A stretch of DNA of 36,778 nt from Candidatus Cloacimonadota bacterium (GTDB lineage: Bacteria > Cloacimonadota > Cloacimonadia > Cloacimonadales > TCS61): NCBI GenBank assembly GCA_018645365.1, contig JABGOP010000017.1, positions 1 through 36,778 of the forward strand, given 5' to 3'. The stretch's first letter is position 1; each line of letters opens with the position of its first letter. Both the position numbers and the translations under genes were made by a program. A model generated the notes under the pieces. It did no database searches, had not been told where the DNA came from, and saw only the letters and a list, made by a program, of their open reading frames with translations. Positions 7,294-36,635 of this stretch are shown here, piece after piece.

Positions 7294-7875
7294 ATGAAAA
7301 AAGATATAATTCTTGCTGGAGTTGGCGGACAGGGTATTTTGTCGATTGCAACCATTATTGGTTATGCTGCAATCGAAAGTGGTTTGAAATTGAAGCAGGC
7401 AGAAGTTCATGGTATGAGTCAACGTGGGGGAGATGTGCAATCTCATCTTCGTATTTCGGATAGCAATGTTTTTTCCGATTTGATTCCACACGGTGCTGCT
7501 GACATTATTATTTCCGTAGAGCCGATGGAAGCATTGCGTTACAAACCGTATCTTTCCGAGAACGGTTGGTTTATCACAAATAGTGTTCCATTTGTAAATA
7601 TTCCGAACTATCCTGCTATTGAAAATGTGATTTCAGACATTCAAAATTGTAAGAATAACATCGTTTTTGATGCCAATCAAATAGCGAAAGATTTAGGTTC
7701 ATCGCGCTCAATGAATATGGTTATTCTCGGTGCTGCGTCATTGTTCTTGGACATTGCCTATGAAAAATTGGAAGAGGGCATTAAATTTATTTTTGGCAGA
7801 AAAGGTGAAAAAATTGTGGAAACAAATTTGAATGCACTCGCTGCTGGTAGAAAATTTGCCGAAGAGAATAGCTAG
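7294..7875 (+). CDS. iorB: Indolepyruvate ferredoxin oxidoreductase beta subunit
   Basis: Partner of IorA; this subunit corresponds to the gamma domain of pyruvate:ferredoxin oxidoreductases and contributes to CoA binding. Of 193 residues, the N-terminus ILAGVGGQGILSIATIIG is the typical GVGGQG loop, followed by VHGMSQRGGDVQSHLRI, also diagnostic. The start is one base after the iorA stop, with GGAG inside the iorA end, so the subunits are co-translated. A strong terminator follows within 25 bases. Length and motifs are normal for the family. Confidence 0.95.
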   Translation: MKKDIILAGVGGQGILSIATIIGYAAIESGLKLKQAEVHGMSQRGGDVQSHLRISDSNVFSDLIPHGAADIIISVEPMEALRYKPYLSENGWFITNSVPFVNIPNYPAIENVISDIQNCKNNIVFDANQIAKDLGSSRSMNMVILGAASLFLDIAYEKLEEGIKFIFGRKGEKIVETNLNALAAGRKFAEENS

Positions 7876-7896: not shown

Positions 7897-7926
7897 AAAA
7901 CCGCCCCTTTTTGGGGCGGTTTTTTT
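7897..7926 (+). terminator. Strong intrinsic terminator after iorB (cassette copy A)
   Basis: AAAACCGCCCC, loop TTTTT, GGGGCGGTTTT, then a T run. The stem is 11 bp with a 7-bp GC-rich core. The same hairpin, with closely similar flanks, ends the gene at 31542 (copy at 31493-31520). It is therefore part of a repeated cassette, not a private terminator. Confidence 0.93.
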
Positions 7927-8183
7927 ATTTGATAAGAGCTCTGAGTATCGATTTCTTAGCAGAAGAATGGAATCCTAGAGCTCTGAGTATCGATTTCCGA
8001 GCAGAAGAATGGAATCCTAGAGCTCTGAGTGTCGATTTCTTAGCAGAAGAATGGAATCCTAGAGCTCTGAGTGTCGATTTCCGAGCAGAGAAATGGAGTC
8101 CTAGAGCTCTGAGTATCGATTCCTCTCCTCATGAATGCAGTTTTCAGTACTTAAAAGTCGATTTGCCACTTACTAAAATAACA

Positions 8184-8214
8184 TTTGACAGAAACTTTTC
8201 CTGATTTTTTTTCG
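8184..8214 (+). promoter_or_regulatory. Promoter-like site at the end of cassette A
   Basis: TTTGACA (8184-8190) followed after 20 bases by TTCG (8211-8214). It has the same spacing as the other sites of this type and the same place within cassette copy B. It would drive the alkyltransferase-like gene 52 bases downstream. Confidence 0.5.
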
Positions 8215-8265
8215 GATTGTTCAATGTTCCATCAAAAAAAATAGTCGTTTTGAGATAATAAAATT

Positions 8266-8568
8266 ATGACATTAAATTTATATCAAAGAATTTATGAAGT
8301 TGTAGCACAAATCCCCAAAGGGAAAGTGGCAACTTATGGACAAATTTCTAAAATTGTAGAATGTAATCCACGCGTGGTTGGTTATGCCATGCGCAATATT
8401 ACAGAAAAGATGAATTTACCTTGGTACAGAGTAATTAATAGTCGCGGGAAAATTAGTTTTCCGTTGGATAGTGATGCTTACTTTGAACAACGCTCTCTTT
8501 TAGAAACTGAAGGTGTTACTTTTTCGGAAAAGAATGTAATTAGTTTAGATAAGTTTAGTTTTTTTTGA
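8266..8568 (+). CDS. Alkyltransferase-like DNA repair protein (ATL)
   Basis: A 100-residue relative of the O6-methylguanine-DNA methyltransferase C-terminal domain. It has YQRIYEVVAQIPKGKVATYGQI, the helix-turn-helix with NPRVVGYAMR (34-43), and PWYRVI (52-57). Active methyltransferases have PCHRV here. The acceptor cysteine is replaced by Trp53, the hallmark of ATL proteins, which bind O6-alkylguanine and flag it for nucleotide excision repair rather than removing the alkyl group. The conserved Tyr24 and the arginine finger (R36) are present. It stands alone behind the repeat cassette and converges with the gene at 8596. No good Shine-Dalgarno sequence was seen. Confidence 0.92.
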   Translation: MTLNLYQRIYEVVAQIPKGKVATYGQISKIVECNPRVVGYAMRNITEKMNLPWYRVINSRGKISFPLDSDAYFEQRSLLETEGVTFSEKNVISLDKFSFF

Positions 8569-29754: not shown

Positions 29755-31245
29755 TTACTTCAACAATATCATCTTTTTGGTATCAACAGGGTTACCATCG
29801 ACAACAAGTTTGTAGAAGTAAACACCACTTGCTTGTTTCTCTGCATTCCAAATAATTTGCTGATTTGGTGAATTTGTGATTTGGAGAGTTTCCACAAGTT
29901 GACCTTTGATGTTAAATATCTTAATCTCTGCGTTTTCCATATTCTCGGCGGAGAGAGAAAAACTTATCGTGGTGGTTGGATTGAAGGGATTAGGATAGTT
30001 GGCTAGTTGGTAATTAGTAACTGCTAATTCGTTATCATTTATTCCAACATCTTGATGATAATAAAACGCTCCCATATCTGCAATGGTGCCATCTGGGTCG
30101 AACGGTGAAGTGGGATCACCTGCATCGATGCAAGGTGAAAATTCGGTAAGATGATAATCCCCATTGGCTGCATCTACGAAAAGTGGATCTAAATCAATAT
30201 TGCCTTCCCCTGCATAGCCACCTTGAATGTCGGAATAGGCAATCAAGATTGAATTAGGAGCATAATTTGTATCAAAATAAATCTCATCTGGTGAATCATT
30301 CCACAGGATACAATTTGCCAAATTTATCTCAGAAACCAAACTATAAATTCCACTGCCATCGTCAGCTGAATTATCCGTTATTGTTACATTAGTTAACATC
30401 GGATATGAATAATAACTATAAATTCCACCACCACAAGGAGCAGAATTATTACTTATCATCACATTTTCAAAACTAGGACCGGCATCACCACACCCTACTC
30501 CACCACCACCATTAGAAGCCGAATTACCTGTTATTTTTACATTAACTAAACTTGCCTCGGAACAATCAAAATCTATACCACCACCGGTACTTGCCGAATT
30601 ATCACTGATTAGTACATTTTCTAAAGTTGTGCAAAGATAAGCAACACATTGAATTCCACCACCATAACGCCCAGCTACATTTCCGCTAATTATCATATTT
30701 TCAAAACTTGAAGTGGAGTGCCGACAATAAATTCCACCGCCATCATAAGAAGCCGAATTATTTGTAACTGTCACATTTTCTAAACTTGGGTTCGAATACT
30801 CGATGGAAATCCCACCACCTCTTGCCAAAGTTCCTGTCGCATTGTTGCCCGTTATCGTTAAATTCACCAAGCTCGGGCTGGAATAGCCACAATAGATTCC
30901 ACCACCACCCCAACAATCTGGATAAACTACATTTACATGACCATTTTGAATAGTAAATTTAGAAATTAAAAAACCAACTCCAGTAATAGTTATAACACGT
31001 CCATTTTCATTTCCGTCAATTATACAATCCTCTTCACCACTACCAATCAGTTTAATGCCATTCACAGCAGGCCAAATAATGTTTTCAACATAAGTGCCGG
31101 CGGCAACGAGAACGCTGTCGCCTTCCGTTGCGACATCCAGCCCCGCTTGGATGGTCTCATAGTCGGCGGGGACATTAATAACAATTGCGTTTAACCACGA
31201 ATTTGTACAAAATAATACTAAAATAACTAAAAATGTTTTTTTCAT
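29755..31245 (-). CDS. Secreted right-handed beta-helix protein with C-terminal sorting domain
   Basis: About 496 residues: signal peptide (about 1-20), then a pectate-lyase-like beta-helix. The helix starts at VINVPADYETIQAGLDVA and continues through many turns of the type GGGIYC.YSSPSLENVTITGNSA (about 100-310). A short spacer follows (CIDAGDPTSPFDPDGTIADM, typical of choice-of-anchor Q), and then an 80-residue C-terminal domain with NYPNPFNPTTTISFSL, IKIFNIKGQLVETL and SGVYFYKLVVDG. Such tails direct secretion and surface attachment in FCB bacteria. GAGGAGG precedes the ATG at 31245. Catalytic residues of polysaccharide lyases were not identified; it may bind or cleave glycans. Confidence 0.9.
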   Translation of the reverse strand: MKKTFLVILVLFCTNSWLNAIVINVPADYETIQAGLDVATEGDSVLVAAGTYVENIIWPAVNGIKLIGSGEEDCIIDGNENGRVITITGVGFLISKFTIQNGHVNVVYPDCWGGGGIYCGYSSPSLVNLTITGNNATGTLARGGGISIEYSNPSLENVTVTNNSASYDGGGIYCRHSTSSFENMIISGNVAGRYGGGIQCVAYLCTTLENVLISDNSASTGGGIDFDCSEASLVNVKITGNSASNGGGGVGCGDAGPSFENVMISNNSAPCGGGIYSYYSYPMLTNVTITDNSADDGSGIYSLVSEINLANCILWNDSPDEIYFDTNYAPNSILIAYSDIQGGYAGEGNIDLDPLFVDAANGDYHLTEFSPCIDAGDPTSPFDPDGTIADMGAFYYHQDVGINDNELAVTNYQLANYPNPFNPTTTISFSLSAENMENAEIKIFNIKGQLVETLQITNSPNQQIIWNAEKQASGVYFYKLVVDGNPVDTKKMILLK

Positions 31246-31330
31246 TTGTTTCCTCCTCAATAAAGATAAAAAGAATCAACTACACAACAAACAATAACTG
31301 CGATATTAACACACGGTGTTACGAACAGTC

Positions 31331-31361
31331 CGAAGAAAAAATAGATAAAATTTTTGTCAAA
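31331..31361 (-). promoter_or_regulatory. Promoter-like site at the end of cassette B
   Basis: Minus strand TTTGACA (31355-31361), 20 bases, TTCG (31331-31334). It is in the same position relative to the 42-bp units as in cassette A and would drive the beta-helix gene 85 bases downstream. Confidence 0.5.
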
Positions 31362-31492
31362 TGTTATTTTGGTAGGTGGCAAATCCACTTTTAAGTGCTG
31401 AAAACCGCATTCACGAGGAGAGGAATCGACTTTTAAGTGCTGAAAACCGCATTTGCGAGGAGGAGAATCGACACTCAGAGTTCTTATAAAAC

Positions 31493-31520
31493 AAAAAACC
31501 GCCCCAAAAAGGGGCGGTTT
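31493..31520 (-). terminator. Strong intrinsic terminator after the 1697-residue gene (cassette copy B)
   Basis: Minus strand: AAACCGCCCC, loop TTTTT, GGGGCGGTTT, TTT. It begins 21 bases past the stop codon at 31542 and is the same hairpin as at 7897-7926. Confidence 0.93.
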
Positions 31521-31541: not shown

Positions 31542-34500
31542 TTAGTTACTCGCAGTAACTTTGTAGAATTTAATTGCAGATGCACCTTCTGAACTGAAAG
31601 TGGTTCCTGTAATAGGTTCAGTATTAATCTGTACCCATTCGCCATTTACAGTATCACAAGCGTAAACTGTGTAATACATGGCACTTTCTACAGCTTCCCA
31701 AGTGAGGGTTCTGAGAACATGTCCACCTTCAAGTTGGGTTACTTCGATTTGAATTGATGGAGCTACCGGTGGAAGTGGAGAAACCATAATGTCATCCATC
31801 ATTTGGAAACCAGCTGTTGTCAGAATGATTTCTGCGTTAGCGATGTTTCCAGTTGCCACTTCTTGTACACGGATGTGTAAAGTTTCACCTTCATTCCATT
31901 GTGATGCGAATGTACCGCACTGAACTACCAACAAGCCTGGTCCTGCGAGTGGATCGCCATAACCACAACCAGTTGATGTTTCTGTGAGTACTTCGTCTGG
32001 ACGCTCTAAAATCCAAGCTTCGTATGTGATAGCATCAGGGTAAGGAATTCCATCTTCTACTGTGAATTCTACAGGAATTACTACATCGTCACCACCATCA
32101 CTAGCGATTACGATATTTGCTGTATAGAATCCTGCTACAAGATCAGTACTATCAAAACTTAATGTAATCGCATCTGACGCACCATAAGCTACATCACCAG
32201 AAATTGGAGTGATTGTTAACCACTCTTCTCTCACAGTTGGCACATAACACAATACATTAGCGTAAACTGGATGTGGTGTTGGTCTATCTCTGTCCATTGA
32301 CTTAATTTGAGGAATTGAACTTAGCATTGTGTAACCTGATGTGATTGCATAGTTAAGAACTGAACCTTCTTCTCCAACATTAGAAATATTGAAGATTGCA
32401 TCGCCGTTACCTGCTTGTGTAATTGATGTTACATCTACATCGATTACTGGAACTGGTGTAGCCATTTCCACGATGTCATTTGCATCGCGAGGTTCAAGTT
32501 TGAATGCACCGTATGAATAAGTAAGAACACCAGTAACATTATATCCAGTGCCTACAACAGGAGTAAATGCAAACATCTTGTCATCAATTGTCGCTACGCC
32601 GGTACCATCATCGATAGACCATTCGCCGTTACCCATATCTGCATTGTCGCATGTACCAGATGTAGTTAGAAGAACACTTTCGTAAGCTTCGTCATTACAT
32701 TGAAGAGTAGAAATCACAACTGGTTCTGGTAAGGCATTACCAGATGAAGTAACAGTATATGTTTGAACATTTATCAGTTCCGTCAAATCATAATACTCTG
32801 TTACTTCAGCAACAACAGTAATCTCATCCCCAACGACAGGTGTGTTGCTAGAATCATAGAACATAATACCATTCCATGCACCTGCTCCATCTTGCAGCCA
32901 ATAATTACTGCCACTAACAGCTGTAATGATACCACTTGTTTGAACATATTCGCCAGCAAATGGAGAAGCGTCTGCTTCGCCTTGAATTTCTGTAATTGTA
33001 TAAGTTGTTGGGAATGTGTAAGTAGTTGCTACTACCGAACTTGGAAGATAACCAAGAGCAAGTGCAATTGCTCTTACTGTGGTATTTTCTGAAACGGTAA
33101 ATGGTGCTTCGAATAATGTTGAATTTACATCTGGGTCGCTACCATCGAGGGTGTAATAAATACCAGCACCAGCTGTTTCAGAAGTTAAAGAAACTTCTTG
33201 TGGAGCAAGATACAATCCGCCTTCTGGTGAGAATACAGGGTTTGCACAAATTTCTGAAAGTGCATTTCCAGTAAGTTGAACATTATCTAATTCCCAAGTT
33301 GCGGAACCAGCTTCATCTGATGTGTAATGGAAACCAATATAAACACTTTCGCCAGCATAACCAGAAAGGTCAATTTCGCCAGAGCTTGTCCAAGCCCAAC
33401 CTGGATCAGCAAGGGTGCAAGTAATATCTGTCCAAGTTGCAGTTGTTGGATCGCCTGCATAATCTGTGGAAATTTTAACTTCCACGATAGGACCGTCATA
33501 ATTTGTGGCAGTTTCGAATGTTAAAATTTCATTTTCATAAATATCGAGATTGAAAGCAGGTGACATCATCCAATCATCACACAATACATCTGCTCCATAT
33601 CCACTGATTTTCATAAATTTAGCATCACCATAATGTGAAAGGTGCCAATCTTCGTTACTTGCTACACTGTAAGTTGTCCACATTCCTTGATCAATTTGGA
33701 AATCTTGGAAATGAATAATGTCAACAAATTCAATAACTGTTACGATAATTTCGTCAGTTGATTCAAGTTCGCCATCATTAACTGTAAGTGTGAATGTGTA
33801 AACGCCAACTTCAAGTTCAGTTGCAAATGATGCTTCTGTTGAAACTTCTATTTCGTTCAAAGCCCAAGAGTATGTGATAGCATCACCATCTGGGTCGTAT
33901 GAAGAAGAACCATCAAGAGTTACAGAAATTAATCCTGCTTCATCTGCCATAACTTCTACATCATCGCCAGCATTAGCGATAGGTGCAAGGTTTCCAGATG
34001 TAACGGTGTGTAAACCGAGATTATCAATTGTATCTTGAGCATAAACCATCCATTCGGAATCGACTTCGCTAGTTCCAGCAGCACTTGCCCAATCGATATT
34101 ACCGCTGAGAACATTAGATTTTCTCACGAGAGTATGATTCGCAGTTCCATTTATAACGCCAGCAACTTCCCAACCAGAACCAGGATCTGCACCTTCGGTA
34201 CCGACTACATCTAGTATTTGTCCATTAAAAGCGAGTGCCATTGCGTCATCGCCATTAAAATAAGTAGCACTTGTACCAATTACATCAGAAACGGCTTGAA
34301 TCTCTGCATTTGCGCTAGAATTACAAATAACGAATACATCGCCTGCTTCAAGAGTACCTTCGAGAGCAACTGCATTTCCTGCACCTTCTGTCCAGTCTCC
34401 ACCGTTAGAAATACGCCAGATTTCAAGACCAGCAAGGTCGATAGCTGTTTCACCTGCGTTGTATATTTCGAGAGCTTTATTGTTGCTGCTACCTTCGATG

Positions 34501-36635
34501 TACTCAGAGAAGAATACATCTGGAGCAGGTGCTGCGTTTTCCCAATAAACTACATCTATAATTTGTTCTGTATTTGTATCATCAATTGAGAAAGTACGAT
34601 TGTCAACGTTTTCCCAATTCCAAGCTACATCACCATCACAGCGAGTAAATTTGAATTCTACATCTCTTACCGAACCAGCTGGGAAGAGTACATCAACCCA
34701 ATAAATTGCGTCCGTTTCTGGATCTGCAAGTGTGATGCTACCAGCACTCCAATCGAGTGGAGCAACACTACCTTGAACTGCAACACCATTTACATAAGCC
34801 GCTGCATTGAGTTGGCTCATATCTACTTGGAAAGTAACAGTTACATCTTGTGTTGTAGGTGGAATTGGTGCTTCGTCATTAAAATAAACCGCATCCAAAA
34901 CTTGAGTTGCTTCTATGTCATCAATTGTGAAAGTACGATTAGCAATATCTTCCCAATCTGTTCCATTTTTGATGAATTTGAATTGATGGTCATAAGCTGA
35001 TAACGCAGGGAATAAAACATCAACTGTGTAGATGTTATCTTCATCAGCATCAGCCATTTCGATTGGTGCGTCACTCCAGTTTGTGAAATCTCCAACTAAA
35101 AATACAGATTCAACTGGAAGTTGAGCAGCCATATCTACTTGGAAAGTAACTGTTACATCCTGAGCAATTCCGAAAGGAACAGCGTATGTAAGAGTTTGTG
35201 GAGTTTCATCAAGAATTTGGAATGTCCAGTTGCCATCAATCCATTGATGGTCAACATCATTCACGCCCCATTCCCAAGAGTTACTACCGCCGTCTGCGAT
35301 TAAGTCTATAACAGTTGTGAAAATGTGGTCACCAGCTGTTACATCCCCATTTGTACCATCATCTAACATTGCAGTTTCAGCACCATCATTCCAACCCATA
35401 TCGTAGTTACCTGTTTCTGCATTGAAAGTTCCCTTCAAATAGAAAGCTGTGTTTGATTGACCATTAGAATCATCTACAATAAAAGTAATGGGAGCAGTTG
35501 CTGGAGCAAGAGCTTCCACGATAGTTGCGTTGGTAGCAAAATTATACTTGATAACGGTTTCTGTTACACCATCAGAAGCAAAGGCAATGTTTCCACCGCA
35601 AGGATCTTGATCCCAATTACCGTTGAAGGTAATTTTTGTTTGCCAAGTTCCTTCTGTGATTAAACCACTCCATTCGTAAATGTCGTCGCCATCTTCATCG
35701 AACATTGTTCCCATACCATCTGTAGGATCCCAGTTAACACCTTCAAATTGGTCAATAAAGTCACCAACTATTACAGGATAATCAACGAACACAAAATTAT
35801 CGGTTGTATTTGCATGGAATGTTATTTCTGTGTCTGGCATAATGTTAAGTGGTTGATTATTTTCAGGATAATTTTCTGCATCCCAAGTGTCACCTTCGAT
35901 TAATTTGTAACCGTAAGTGCCTTCGGAAACGATGCGTGTTAATTCATAAACGCCATTGTCATTCAAAGTAAGTCCCCATTCTGTATCACCAGGAGTCCAA
36001 CCATTCATATCACCAACGATGTAAGCATCGTATGTTTCGGGAGTTGAACCTGCTCCAATCCATGTACCTGGATCAAAATCTTCTGGTGCATACTGTGGAC
36101 CATCGCCACCGCCAGAATCGTTATCAACATTCCATTCTGCAACATCCCATACTGGGTTACTTGCAATTACAAAATCAGCTCTTTCTGCACGTCCGTTTTC
36201 AAATTCGTGACCTGTGCCTGAACCATCTTCACCTGGAACGCCGAAGATATCAACTACAACGCCTAATTCATTAACAATAGCAACATTATCATCACCATTA
36301 CTATCAGCAGGACCACCTGTTCCGATACTTTGGTCTGCTTCAAACCCGTAAGTTGTTGAGAAAAAAGATGCATTATTACAAACAATATAAAAAGCACCGG
36401 CGGGGATAATTCCTGTTAAAGCAACAGGTGTACTCGGGTCAGCATTACCATTTGTCCATCTTTGAATAAGCCAGCCAGTTGAAAAATCTACATCTGTCTC
36501 ACCATTGTTGTAAAGCTCTACAAACCTTCCTGCGGTTGATGAGTTTTGAGGATCTGCCAATTCTGTAATAAGTACATCTGCCATTACAAATTGAGCTAAT
36601 CCTAAAATAAGTAGTAATAAAAATATTTTTTTCAT
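31542..36635 (-). CDS. Giant multidomain secreted protein (lamin-tail, carbohydrate-binding-like, PKD, OB-type domains)
   Basis: 1697 residues. Signal peptide 1-19; first lamin-tail domain 20-195 (VLITELADP...GRFVELYN). Carbohydrate-binding-like beta-sandwiches lie at about 200-375 (YIVGDMNGW) and 380-490. Two related starch-binding-like modules each begin DVTVTFQVDM (493-590, 597-700). A second lamin-tail domain (706-880: FFSEYIEGSSNNKALEIYN) precedes a PKD domain (883-968). Then come a choice-of-anchor-J-like region (970-1125), a chitobiase-type beta domain (1130-1210), an OB-type nucleic-acid/sugar-binding-like domain (1211-1391) and a BACON-like domain (1394-1527). The end is fibronectin-III-like (1630-1697). 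It lacks the NYPNPFNP sorting tail of its neighbour and shows no catalytic motif. RBS AAGGAG precedes the ATG. A surface adhesin or scaffold is the likeliest role. Confidence 0.88.
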   Translation of the reverse strand: MKKIFLLLLILGLAQFVMADVLITELADPQNSSTAGRFVELYNNGETDVDFSTGWLIQRWTNGNADPSTPVALTGIIPAGAFYIVCNNASFFSTTYGFEADQSIGTGGPADSNGDDNVAIVNELGVVVDIFGVPGEDGSGTGHEFENGRAERADFVIASNPVWDVAEWNVDNDSGGGDGPQYAPEDFDPGTWIGAGSTPETYDAYIVGDMNGWTPGDTEWGLTLNDNGVYELTRIVSEGTYGYKLIEGDTWDAENYPENNQPLNIMPDTEITFHANTTDNFVFVDYPVIVGDFIDQFEGVNWDPTDGMGTMFDEDGDDIYEWSGLITEGTWQTKITFNGNWDQDPCGGNIAFASDGVTETVIKYNFATNATIVEALAPATAPITFIVDDSNGQSNTAFYLKGTFNAETGNYDMGWNDGAETAMLDDGTNGDVTAGDHIFTTVIDLIADGGSNSWEWGVNDVDHQWIDGNWTFQILDETPQTLTYAVPFGIAQDVTVTFQVDMAAQLPVESVFLVGDFTNWSDAPIEMADADEDNIYTVDVLFPALSAYDHQFKFIKNGTDWEDIANRTFTIDDIEATQVLDAVYFNDEAPIPPTTQDVTVTFQVDMSQLNAAAYVNGVAVQGSVAPLDWSAGSITLADPETDAIYWVDVLFPAGSVRDVEFKFTRCDGDVAWNWENVDNRTFSIDDTNTEQIIDVVYWENAAPAPDVFFSEYIEGSSNNKALEIYNAGETAIDLAGLEIWRISNGGDWTEGAGNAVALEGTLEAGDVFVICNSSANAEIQAVSDVIGTSATYFNGDDAMALAFNGQILDVVGTEGADPGSGWEVAGVINGTANHTLVRKSNVLSGNIDWASAAGTSEVDSEWMVYAQDTIDNLGLHTVTSGNLAPIANAGDDVEVMADEAGLISVTLDGSSSYDPDGDAITYSWALNEIEVSTEASFATELEVGVYTFTLTVNDGELESTDEIIVTVIEFVDIIHFQDFQIDQGMWTTYSVASNEDWHLSHYGDAKFMKISGYGADVLCDDWMMSPAFNLDIYENEILTFETATNYDGPIVEVKISTDYAGDPTTATWTDITCTLADPGWAWTSSGEIDLSGYAGESVYIGFHYTSDEAGSATWELDNVQLTGNALSEICANPVFSPEGGLYLAPQEVSLTSETAGAGIYYTLDGSDPDVNSTLFEAPFTVSENTTVRAIALALGYLPSSVVATTYTFPTTYTITEIQGEADASPFAGEYVQTSGIITAVSGSNYWLQDGAGAWNGIMFYDSSNTPVVGDEITVVAEVTEYYDLTELINVQTYTVTSSGNALPEPVVISTLQCNDEAYESVLLTTSGTCDNADMGNGEWSIDDGTGVATIDDKMFAFTPVVGTGYNVTGVLTYSYGAFKLEPRDANDIVEMATPVPVIDVDVTSITQAGNGDAIFNISNVGEEGSVLNYAITSGYTMLSSIPQIKSMDRDRPTPHPVYANVLCYVPTVREEWLTITPISGDVAYGASDAITLSFDSTDLVAGFYTANIVIASDGGDDVVIPVEFTVEDGIPYPDAITYEAWILERPDEVLTETSTGCGYGDPLAGPGLLVVQCGTFASQWNEGETLHIRVQEVATGNIANAEIILTTAGFQMMDDIMVSPLPPVAPSIQIEVTQLEGGHVLRTLTWEAVESAMYYTVYACDTVNGEWVQINTEPITGTTFSSEGASAIKFYKVTASN

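Follow-up and report, generated by a model that had tools for sequence, protein, structure and literature searches.

Downstream of an oxidoreductase gene in the genome of a Candidatus Cloacimonadota bacterium, two different repeat bodies of equal length follow each other on one 42-bp period, which raises the question of what keeps the geometry of an intergenic array while its sequence changes. The window, i.e., the whole analysed stretch of 36,778 nucleotides, holds two such arrays, referred to as copy A and copy B. They were followed through the genome they belong to (1.79 Mb, 59 contigs, 97% complete, 0.4% contamination), sought in related genomes and compared with known repeat systems.

Anatomy of the two arrays in the window

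Copy A lies on the plus strand, as do the genes on both of its sides. The upstream gene (7294-7875), an ORF with a match to Pfam POR (PF01558, E=3e-35), encodes an IorB-like subunit of a 2-oxoacid:ferredoxin oxidoreductase and is followed at 7897-7923 by an intrinsic terminator, AAAACCGCCCC-TTTTT-GGGGCGGTTTT with a T run. The array is entered through the tail of a type-1 unit (AGAGCTCTGAGT, 7935-7946) and continues with four type-1 units of 42 bp (7947-7988, 7989-8030, 8031-8072, and 8073-8114) and one 42-bp unit of type 2a (8115-8156). A 3' module common to other loci closes the element at 8157-8219. It starts with a last partial unit, GTCGATT, continues with TGCCACTTACTAAAATAACATTTGACAG...TTTCGGATTG, and includes TTGACA at 8185-8190 as a putative -35 hexamer, with TTTCGG 19 nt further on (8210-8215). 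The product of the downstream gene (8266-8568) is ATL-like and carries the DNA-binding domain of 6-O-methylguanine DNA methyltransferase (PF01035). The sequence-only reading had described a CGATT lattice with steps of exactly 42, type 1 in four periods, type 2 in one, and no indel in either copy. All of this was reproduced, with CGATT starting at 7949, 7991, 8033, 8075, 8117, and 8159, type 1 filling 7947-8114 and type 2 filling 8115-8156, and TRF returning period 42 with 0% indels (scores 311 and 147). The interval given at that time, 7897-8222, does contain the array, but it joins three things, namely the terminator (7897-7923), the array itself (7935-8163) and the promoter-like segment (8185-8215).

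Copy B is found on the minus strand with all of its parts. Here, the upstream gene (31542-36635) encodes a large secreted multidomain protein (PF00932, PF13290, and others), the intrinsic terminator spans 31496-31520, and the two units at 31472-31431 and 31430-31389 are both of type 2, as already described, and more precisely of type 2a. The 3' module (GTGGATTTGCCACC..., 31330-31388) holds TTGACA at 31360-31355 and CTTCGG at 31335-31330, and the downstream gene (29755-31260) encodes a secreted beta-helix-like protein with a type IX sorting tail (PF02415, PF18962). In addition, an array of different sequence, with 5.1 copies of the 21-bp unit AAAAAGTAATATTATCCTAGG, occupies positions 1-108 at the contig end. 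It belongs to the family F2 and lies, on the minus strand, beyond the terminator that follows the gene 735-397.

The 42-bp family between terminators and promoter-like modules

The family was collected with copies A and B as blastn queries, and the loci were then read individually. Far from being confined to the two loci of the window, the copies belong to a dispersed family with related elements on about 16 contigs, and 40 complete 42-bp units were counted at 14 locus entries, with a spacing of exactly 42 bp within the arrays throughout. Four body types are distinguished, type 1 (T1) and the type-2 (T2) subtypes 2a, 2b, and 2c, which have the first ~29 bases in common and differ in the last 13. 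The unit order is 1,1,1,1,2a in copy A, 2a,2a in copy B and at each of the loci C12, C41, and C58, 2c,2c at C21, 2a,2a,2a,2c,2b at C51, 2c,2b,2b,2b,2c,2b at C49, 2b,2c,2b,2b at C16, five type-1 units at C13 and one 2b unit at C57; many arrays stop at contig ends of the fragmented assembly, so that orders and also lengths at those loci are provisional. Mixed arrays in one register were sought elsewhere in the genome and found at C51, C49, and C16 besides copy A. The proposal of interchangeable cassettes on one lattice is thereby supported and extends to four body types, and at C49 the 42-bp lattice even carries a spliced-on 21-bp family (F3). Two details of the earlier description had to be revised. 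CGATT is not invariant, as GGATT stands in many units and also at lattice position three of copy B, and the conserved core of a lattice position is TSGATT. Moreover, the two bodies, which had been called unrelated, are partly alike in layout, each retaining GATT...AATG and a dyad with its centre at unit position 34.5.

No relatives of the 42-bp unit were detected in 58-98 related genomes by BLAST, lattice-pattern and translated searches. A weak DNA match in the genome G005 was rejected, being terminator sequence and not a 42-bp unit, and a translated match in G042 is marginal. The exact type-2 pattern did not occur in GTDB genomes or IMG/VR, nor the exact type-1 pattern in IMG/VR, and blastn of copy A against phage and plasmid collections gave no match. 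Judged by the iorB-like gene, the nearest named relatives are Candidatus Tenebribacter davisii and another Candidatus Cloacimonadota genome, and no array was found downstream of iorB in either. Likewise, no account of comparable repeats in Cloacimonadota was found in the open-licence literature, which is weak evidence of novelty. Among the surroundings of the arrays, two further observations were made. The C16 array (36951-37140) is located about 100 bp past a gene (35867-36847) with an FGE-sulfatase domain (PF03781), the product of which has a C-terminus similar to variable proteins of diversity-generating retroelements. The array flanks at L075 and L076 have a common repeat, CCCCTCTAAAAAGAGGGGTGGATTGCGAAGCAAGACGGGGTGTGT, which adjoins the arrays and is possibly a MITE-like element.

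At most loci, the upstream gene and a GC-rich terminator are followed after 19-21 bp by the units and then by GTSGATTTGCCACYTACYAAAATAACATTTGACAG...TTCGG, a leader and the next gene. The gap between terminator and first unit measures 19-21 bp at seven of eight loci; at C21, where the first unit is diverged, it is 63 bp. Terminators precede most, not all, of the 42-bp arrays, and similar ones occur without arrays. Near-identical CCGCCCC-loop-GGGGCGG terminators were seen at many genes, with or without arrays (C12:17936, C22:216, C24:1850, C30:1646 and 8050, C35:20480, C54:65977). On the other side of the units, TTTGACA follows the last lattice position (GTSGATT) at a distance of 27 bp in 11 of the twelve 42-bp loci that were measured, with C22 (65 bp) as a degenerate exception. 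For the F3 array at C14, the distance is 26 bp by equivalence from C49, where F3 and T2 units stand in one register. Integral-turn spacing, in units of 42 and 21 bp, is thus combined with a fixed phase to the predicted promoter. One unit separates terminator and promoter at C57, two do so in copy B and at C12, C41, and C58, and five in copy A and at C51; as L077 consists of terminator and promoter without a unit, the series spans 0 to 6 units. The arrays at C13 and C16 have no promoter module, and the F3 array at C39 has neither terminator nor TTTGACA.

The gene downstream is co-directional with the array in all 13 resolved 42-bp loci (binomial p=2e-4), a result to which common descent contributes in part, as several loci have promoter, leader and signal peptide in common. 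Twelve of these loci were evaluated by automatic ORF picking, and C22 was read from the sequence because automatic picking yielded a spurious antisense frame there. The genes upstream are mostly, not always, co-directional. Secreted proteins with type IX sorting tails are frequent among the downstream products, which also comprise the ATL-like protein, KilA-N and an elongation-factor-G-like GTPase, the last recognised by eye from its N-terminus alone.

A sigma-70 consensus scan revealed no good promoter at the TTGACA of copies A and B and no canonical -10 box; the -10 element was therefore sought empirically. In intergenic samples totalling 17 kb, TTGACA occurs 50 times vs 4.2 times in shuffles, i.e., it is about 12-fold enriched, and TTTCG/TTTG peaks at +19 nt after intergenic TTGACA, as in TTGACA-N15-TAAGTTTCG. 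The modules of copy A (TTGACA-N19-TTTCGG) and copy B (TTGACA-N19-CTTCGG) both fit this spacing, and the pattern resembles the -33/-7 promoter type of Bacteroidetes. TTGACA-N15-TAAGTTTCG is apparently a genome-wide promoter pattern, which would make it useful for the annotation of Cloacimonadota.

Periods of 21 bp in other repeat families

Unit lengths of 21 or 42 recur in this genome in no fewer than five further repeat families, most of them unrelated. Family F1 (GGGGAAACGATATTCCCTATG, 21 bp) is present on seven contigs, F2 (21 bp, with CCTAGG) at positions 1-108 of the window and at C8 and C23, and F3, with the 21-bp units CACTTTGAGTAGGAGCAACTA and TGTTTCAAATGAGGGCAACTA, at L078 (C14) together with the same promoter module as at the 42-bp arrays. 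F6 (GAGACTATGCGACAGAATCCC) and F7 (TACAGGTTGTCTGTAGACCTC) are further 21-bp families, and F8 is a diverged 42-bp family. Every adjacent spacing in F3 (16+11) and in the three longest arrays of the unrelated family F1 (11+3+2) is 21. Non-coding tandem arrays with a TRF score of at least 75 have a period of 21, 42 or 63 in eight of nine cases in 753 kb of the genome, a sample (of 1.79 Mb) for which contigs were picked by length and number, some of them for terminator or element matches, and which includes the window itself with copies A, B and F2. Multiples of 21 account for two of 50 in a comparison set sampled from eight relatives and 80 other loci (Fisher p = 1.8e-7; by sequence families 5/6, p = 3e-5). 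As TRF reports small indels in two of the eight multiple-of-21 arrays, the rule is strong, not absolute. The independence of the families is uncertain, as some of them occur joined to one another. F3 and T2 adjoin directly at C49, and F6 is joined to F1 at C12/C15, so that there are perhaps fewer families than is apparent.

A fixed period is not simply the default for repeats in the phylum, since the palindromic repeat of the relatives G096 and G097 is freely spaced, with spacings of 42, 48, 55, 69, and 83. A 42-bp TGGATT array in G096 was considered as a homologue and rejected, as it represents a hairpin repeat with free spacing. About 50-90 copies per genome of the REP-like hairpin repeat TGGATACGTCTCGTGTCCA were seen in G096 and G097 (L091, L361, L362), again with variable spacing. 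In the complete genome of a further relative (G048), 30 intergenic tandem arrays in 400 kb show no preference for any period, markedly unlike those of the genome studied here. An unrelated intergenic array of 21-bp units (ATTTCACGAAGCCTAACTTGC, 10.8 copies) occurs in another uncultured bacterium (AlinenLipids_bin-6511, L203:6930-7155).

Candidate explanations and known repeat systems

The arrays combine a strict lattice with exchange of unit types, and their position, their orientation and their fixed phase to the promoter-like module are established. On this basis, they are tentatively regarded as a modular interspersed intergenic element, the units of which may be helically phased protein-binding sites upstream of promoters, a reading that is plausible and somewhat short of probable. 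The geometry and the position ahead of promoters suggest such a gene-control element in preference to ordinary satellite DNA. A dyad is centred at position 34.5 in T1, 2a, 2b, and 2c (p=0.004, a value which overstates independence because 2a, 2b, and 2c are related). Over nine arrays, the dyads give a combined p=0.001, being imperfect and mostly non-significant family by family. The earlier suggestion that 42 bp places the repeated motif on one face of the DNA, at four helical turns, gains strong circumstantial support from the 21n periods in other families, and it is strengthened by the fact that these periods are kept while no reading frame shows purifying selection. The selected property would be the position on the DNA helix. 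Each unit would offer one or two imperfect dyads, separated from the following unit by two or four helical turns, and a putative protein, either a dimeric regulator or a nucleoid protein, could stack on one DNA face upstream of the -35 box. The stacked protein might tune or insulate the promoter with unit number and type as the variable dial, and spread and unit exchange would proceed via recombination between copies. Several points count against phased sites: the imperfect dyads, the arrays at C13, C16 and C39 with no promoter module or TTTGACA, the common descent behind part of the co-orientation, the arrays that stop at contig ends, the lack of a canonical -10 box in copies A and B, and the absence of the element from the same-genus genomes searched. 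A further-reaching claim is that a two-helical-turn (21 bp) rule at the DNA level governs nearly all non-coding tandem arrays of this genome whatever their sequence, which would imply a shared factor or copying mechanism that responds to helical spacing and not to sequence. The arrays would then act as interchangeable elements, either phased spacers or activator stacks, placed between terminators and promoters; this is considered rather unlikely.

The foremost competing explanation is a modular repeat, neutral or selfish, of the BOX, STAR or MIRU kind, spreading and expanding by unequal recombination and gene conversion without any host function, which is a realistic possibility with the balance leaning against it. 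The lattice would then be kept by descent and register-dependent recombination, and 21n would stem from the copying mechanism or from an ancestral 21-bp repeat. Such a repeat explains the mosaic way in which terminator, array, promoter, and leader are combined from locus to locus as well as the restriction to one species, this genome being the only one with the element among the relatives searched, and the arrays at C13 and C16, carried without terminator or promoter, and the direct joins of F3 to T2 and F6 to F1 speak in its favour. Nevertheless, it accounts for the common period only with a shared ancestor or a 21-bp copying ruler, and T1/T2, F1, F2, F7, and F8 all obey 21n despite the lack of evident similarity. 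The free spacing (42-83) in G096/G097 and the co-direction of every resolved 42-bp array with its downstream gene also argue against it.

Three other explanations are given much less weight. An array of transcribed RNA hairpins, serving as leader, attenuator or stability element, is suggested by the 2b and 2c units, which can pair TTTATC/GATAAA and TTTCT/AGAAA, and by AGAGCTCT in type 1; it is improbable in view of folding energies of whole arrays and unit trimers that differ by less than 2 SD from dinucleotide shuffles on both strands (z -2 to +1.5), the absence of an Rfam match in the window and the location of the putative promoter downstream of the array. As 21 and 42 are codon multiples, the arrays might instead encode peptide repeats of 7 or 14 residues, and frame 1, which gives VDSSPRECGFQHLK, IDFRAEKWSPRALS, and TLSENNY, is indeed open in most arrays, the periods are multiples of seven codons, and F3 and T2 share a frame at C49. 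A coding minisatellite was rejected and this explanation is held to be very improbable, because none of the six frames has an excess of synonymous changes (10 in frame 1 vs 14 expected), F1 and F3 are likewise without clear synonymous excess, type 1 at C13 has an in-frame TGA in frame 1, the array comes directly after the terminator in copies A and B, and any multiple of 3 would do, not 21 alone. An assembly or binning artefact of the metagenome-assembled genome could be seen in the arrays at contig ends and in the identical two-unit array of C12, C41, and C58. It is scarcely credible for copies A, B and others, which lie well within contigs and are flanked by genes, and for a genome of the completeness and low contamination given above.

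If the 21n rule is a product of selection, the loci form a natural series, with 0 to 6 units, four body types and one promoter module, that would let one measure promoter tuning by helically phased upstream sites in a phylum where molecular genetics is almost lacking. If 21n is mechanistic, it indicates that repeats are copied by a process with a two-turn ruler. In both cases, repeat sequence is separated from repeat geometry, which is not the case in ordinary interspersed repeats.

The sequence-only reading held that neither CRISPR nor REP nor usual satellite DNA explains two alternating bodies. This stands for CRISPR, which was rejected since the whole 42-bp unit recurs and there are no unique spacers. 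In REP/BIME elements, palindromic units are mobilised by a RAYT (Y1_Tnp) transposase; the units here have only imperfect dyads, and one partial PF01797 match was found in an open frame of 1245 codons, which is not a typical RAYT. Iterons and helically phased operators are direct repeats about two helical turns apart, each iteron array being made up of one sequence and placed at a replication origin, whereas the Cloacimonadota arrays occur on about 16 contigs and in many sequence families. The MIRU of Mycobacterium tuberculosis are tandem intergenic repeats oriented with their flanking genes, and they are coding-frame repeats between the genes of operons. The arrays described here share the orientation with the gene, but they have no coding signal and usually a terminator ahead.

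STAR elements of Staphylococcus aureus are intergenic direct repeats of 1-7 units per locus with unknown function, in which a 14-bp GC-rich motif, T(G/A/T)TGTTG(G/T)GGCCC(C/A), alternates with variable, locus-specific spacers of 40-44 bp, and in some strains two or more spacer types occur at a single locus (PMC3532100). The Cloacimonadota arrays are intergenic direct repeats as well, but their units have no STAR motif, the whole unit is fixed at 42 bp and the types are shared between loci. That nothing known resembles the arrays is not supported in view of BOX, which are modular intergenic repeats with internal modules variable in number and kind (PMC3049150). In Streptococcus pneumoniae and S. 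suis, these dispersed intergenic composites have modules at their ends and, between them, internal tandem modules in varying number, of which S. suis has more than one type; boxA and boxC were reported to stimulate downstream genes, and stem-loops are predicted for BOX RNA (PMC3049150). Judged by organisation, not by sequence, BOX appears to be the closest known system, as the Cloacimonadota element similarly features a terminator-side entry, 0-6 internal units and a promoter-side exit. It differs from BOX in the strict 42-bp spacing, in several body types within one register, in the absence of an RNA fold signal (z-scores -2 to +1.5) and in the genome-wide 21n rule across families.
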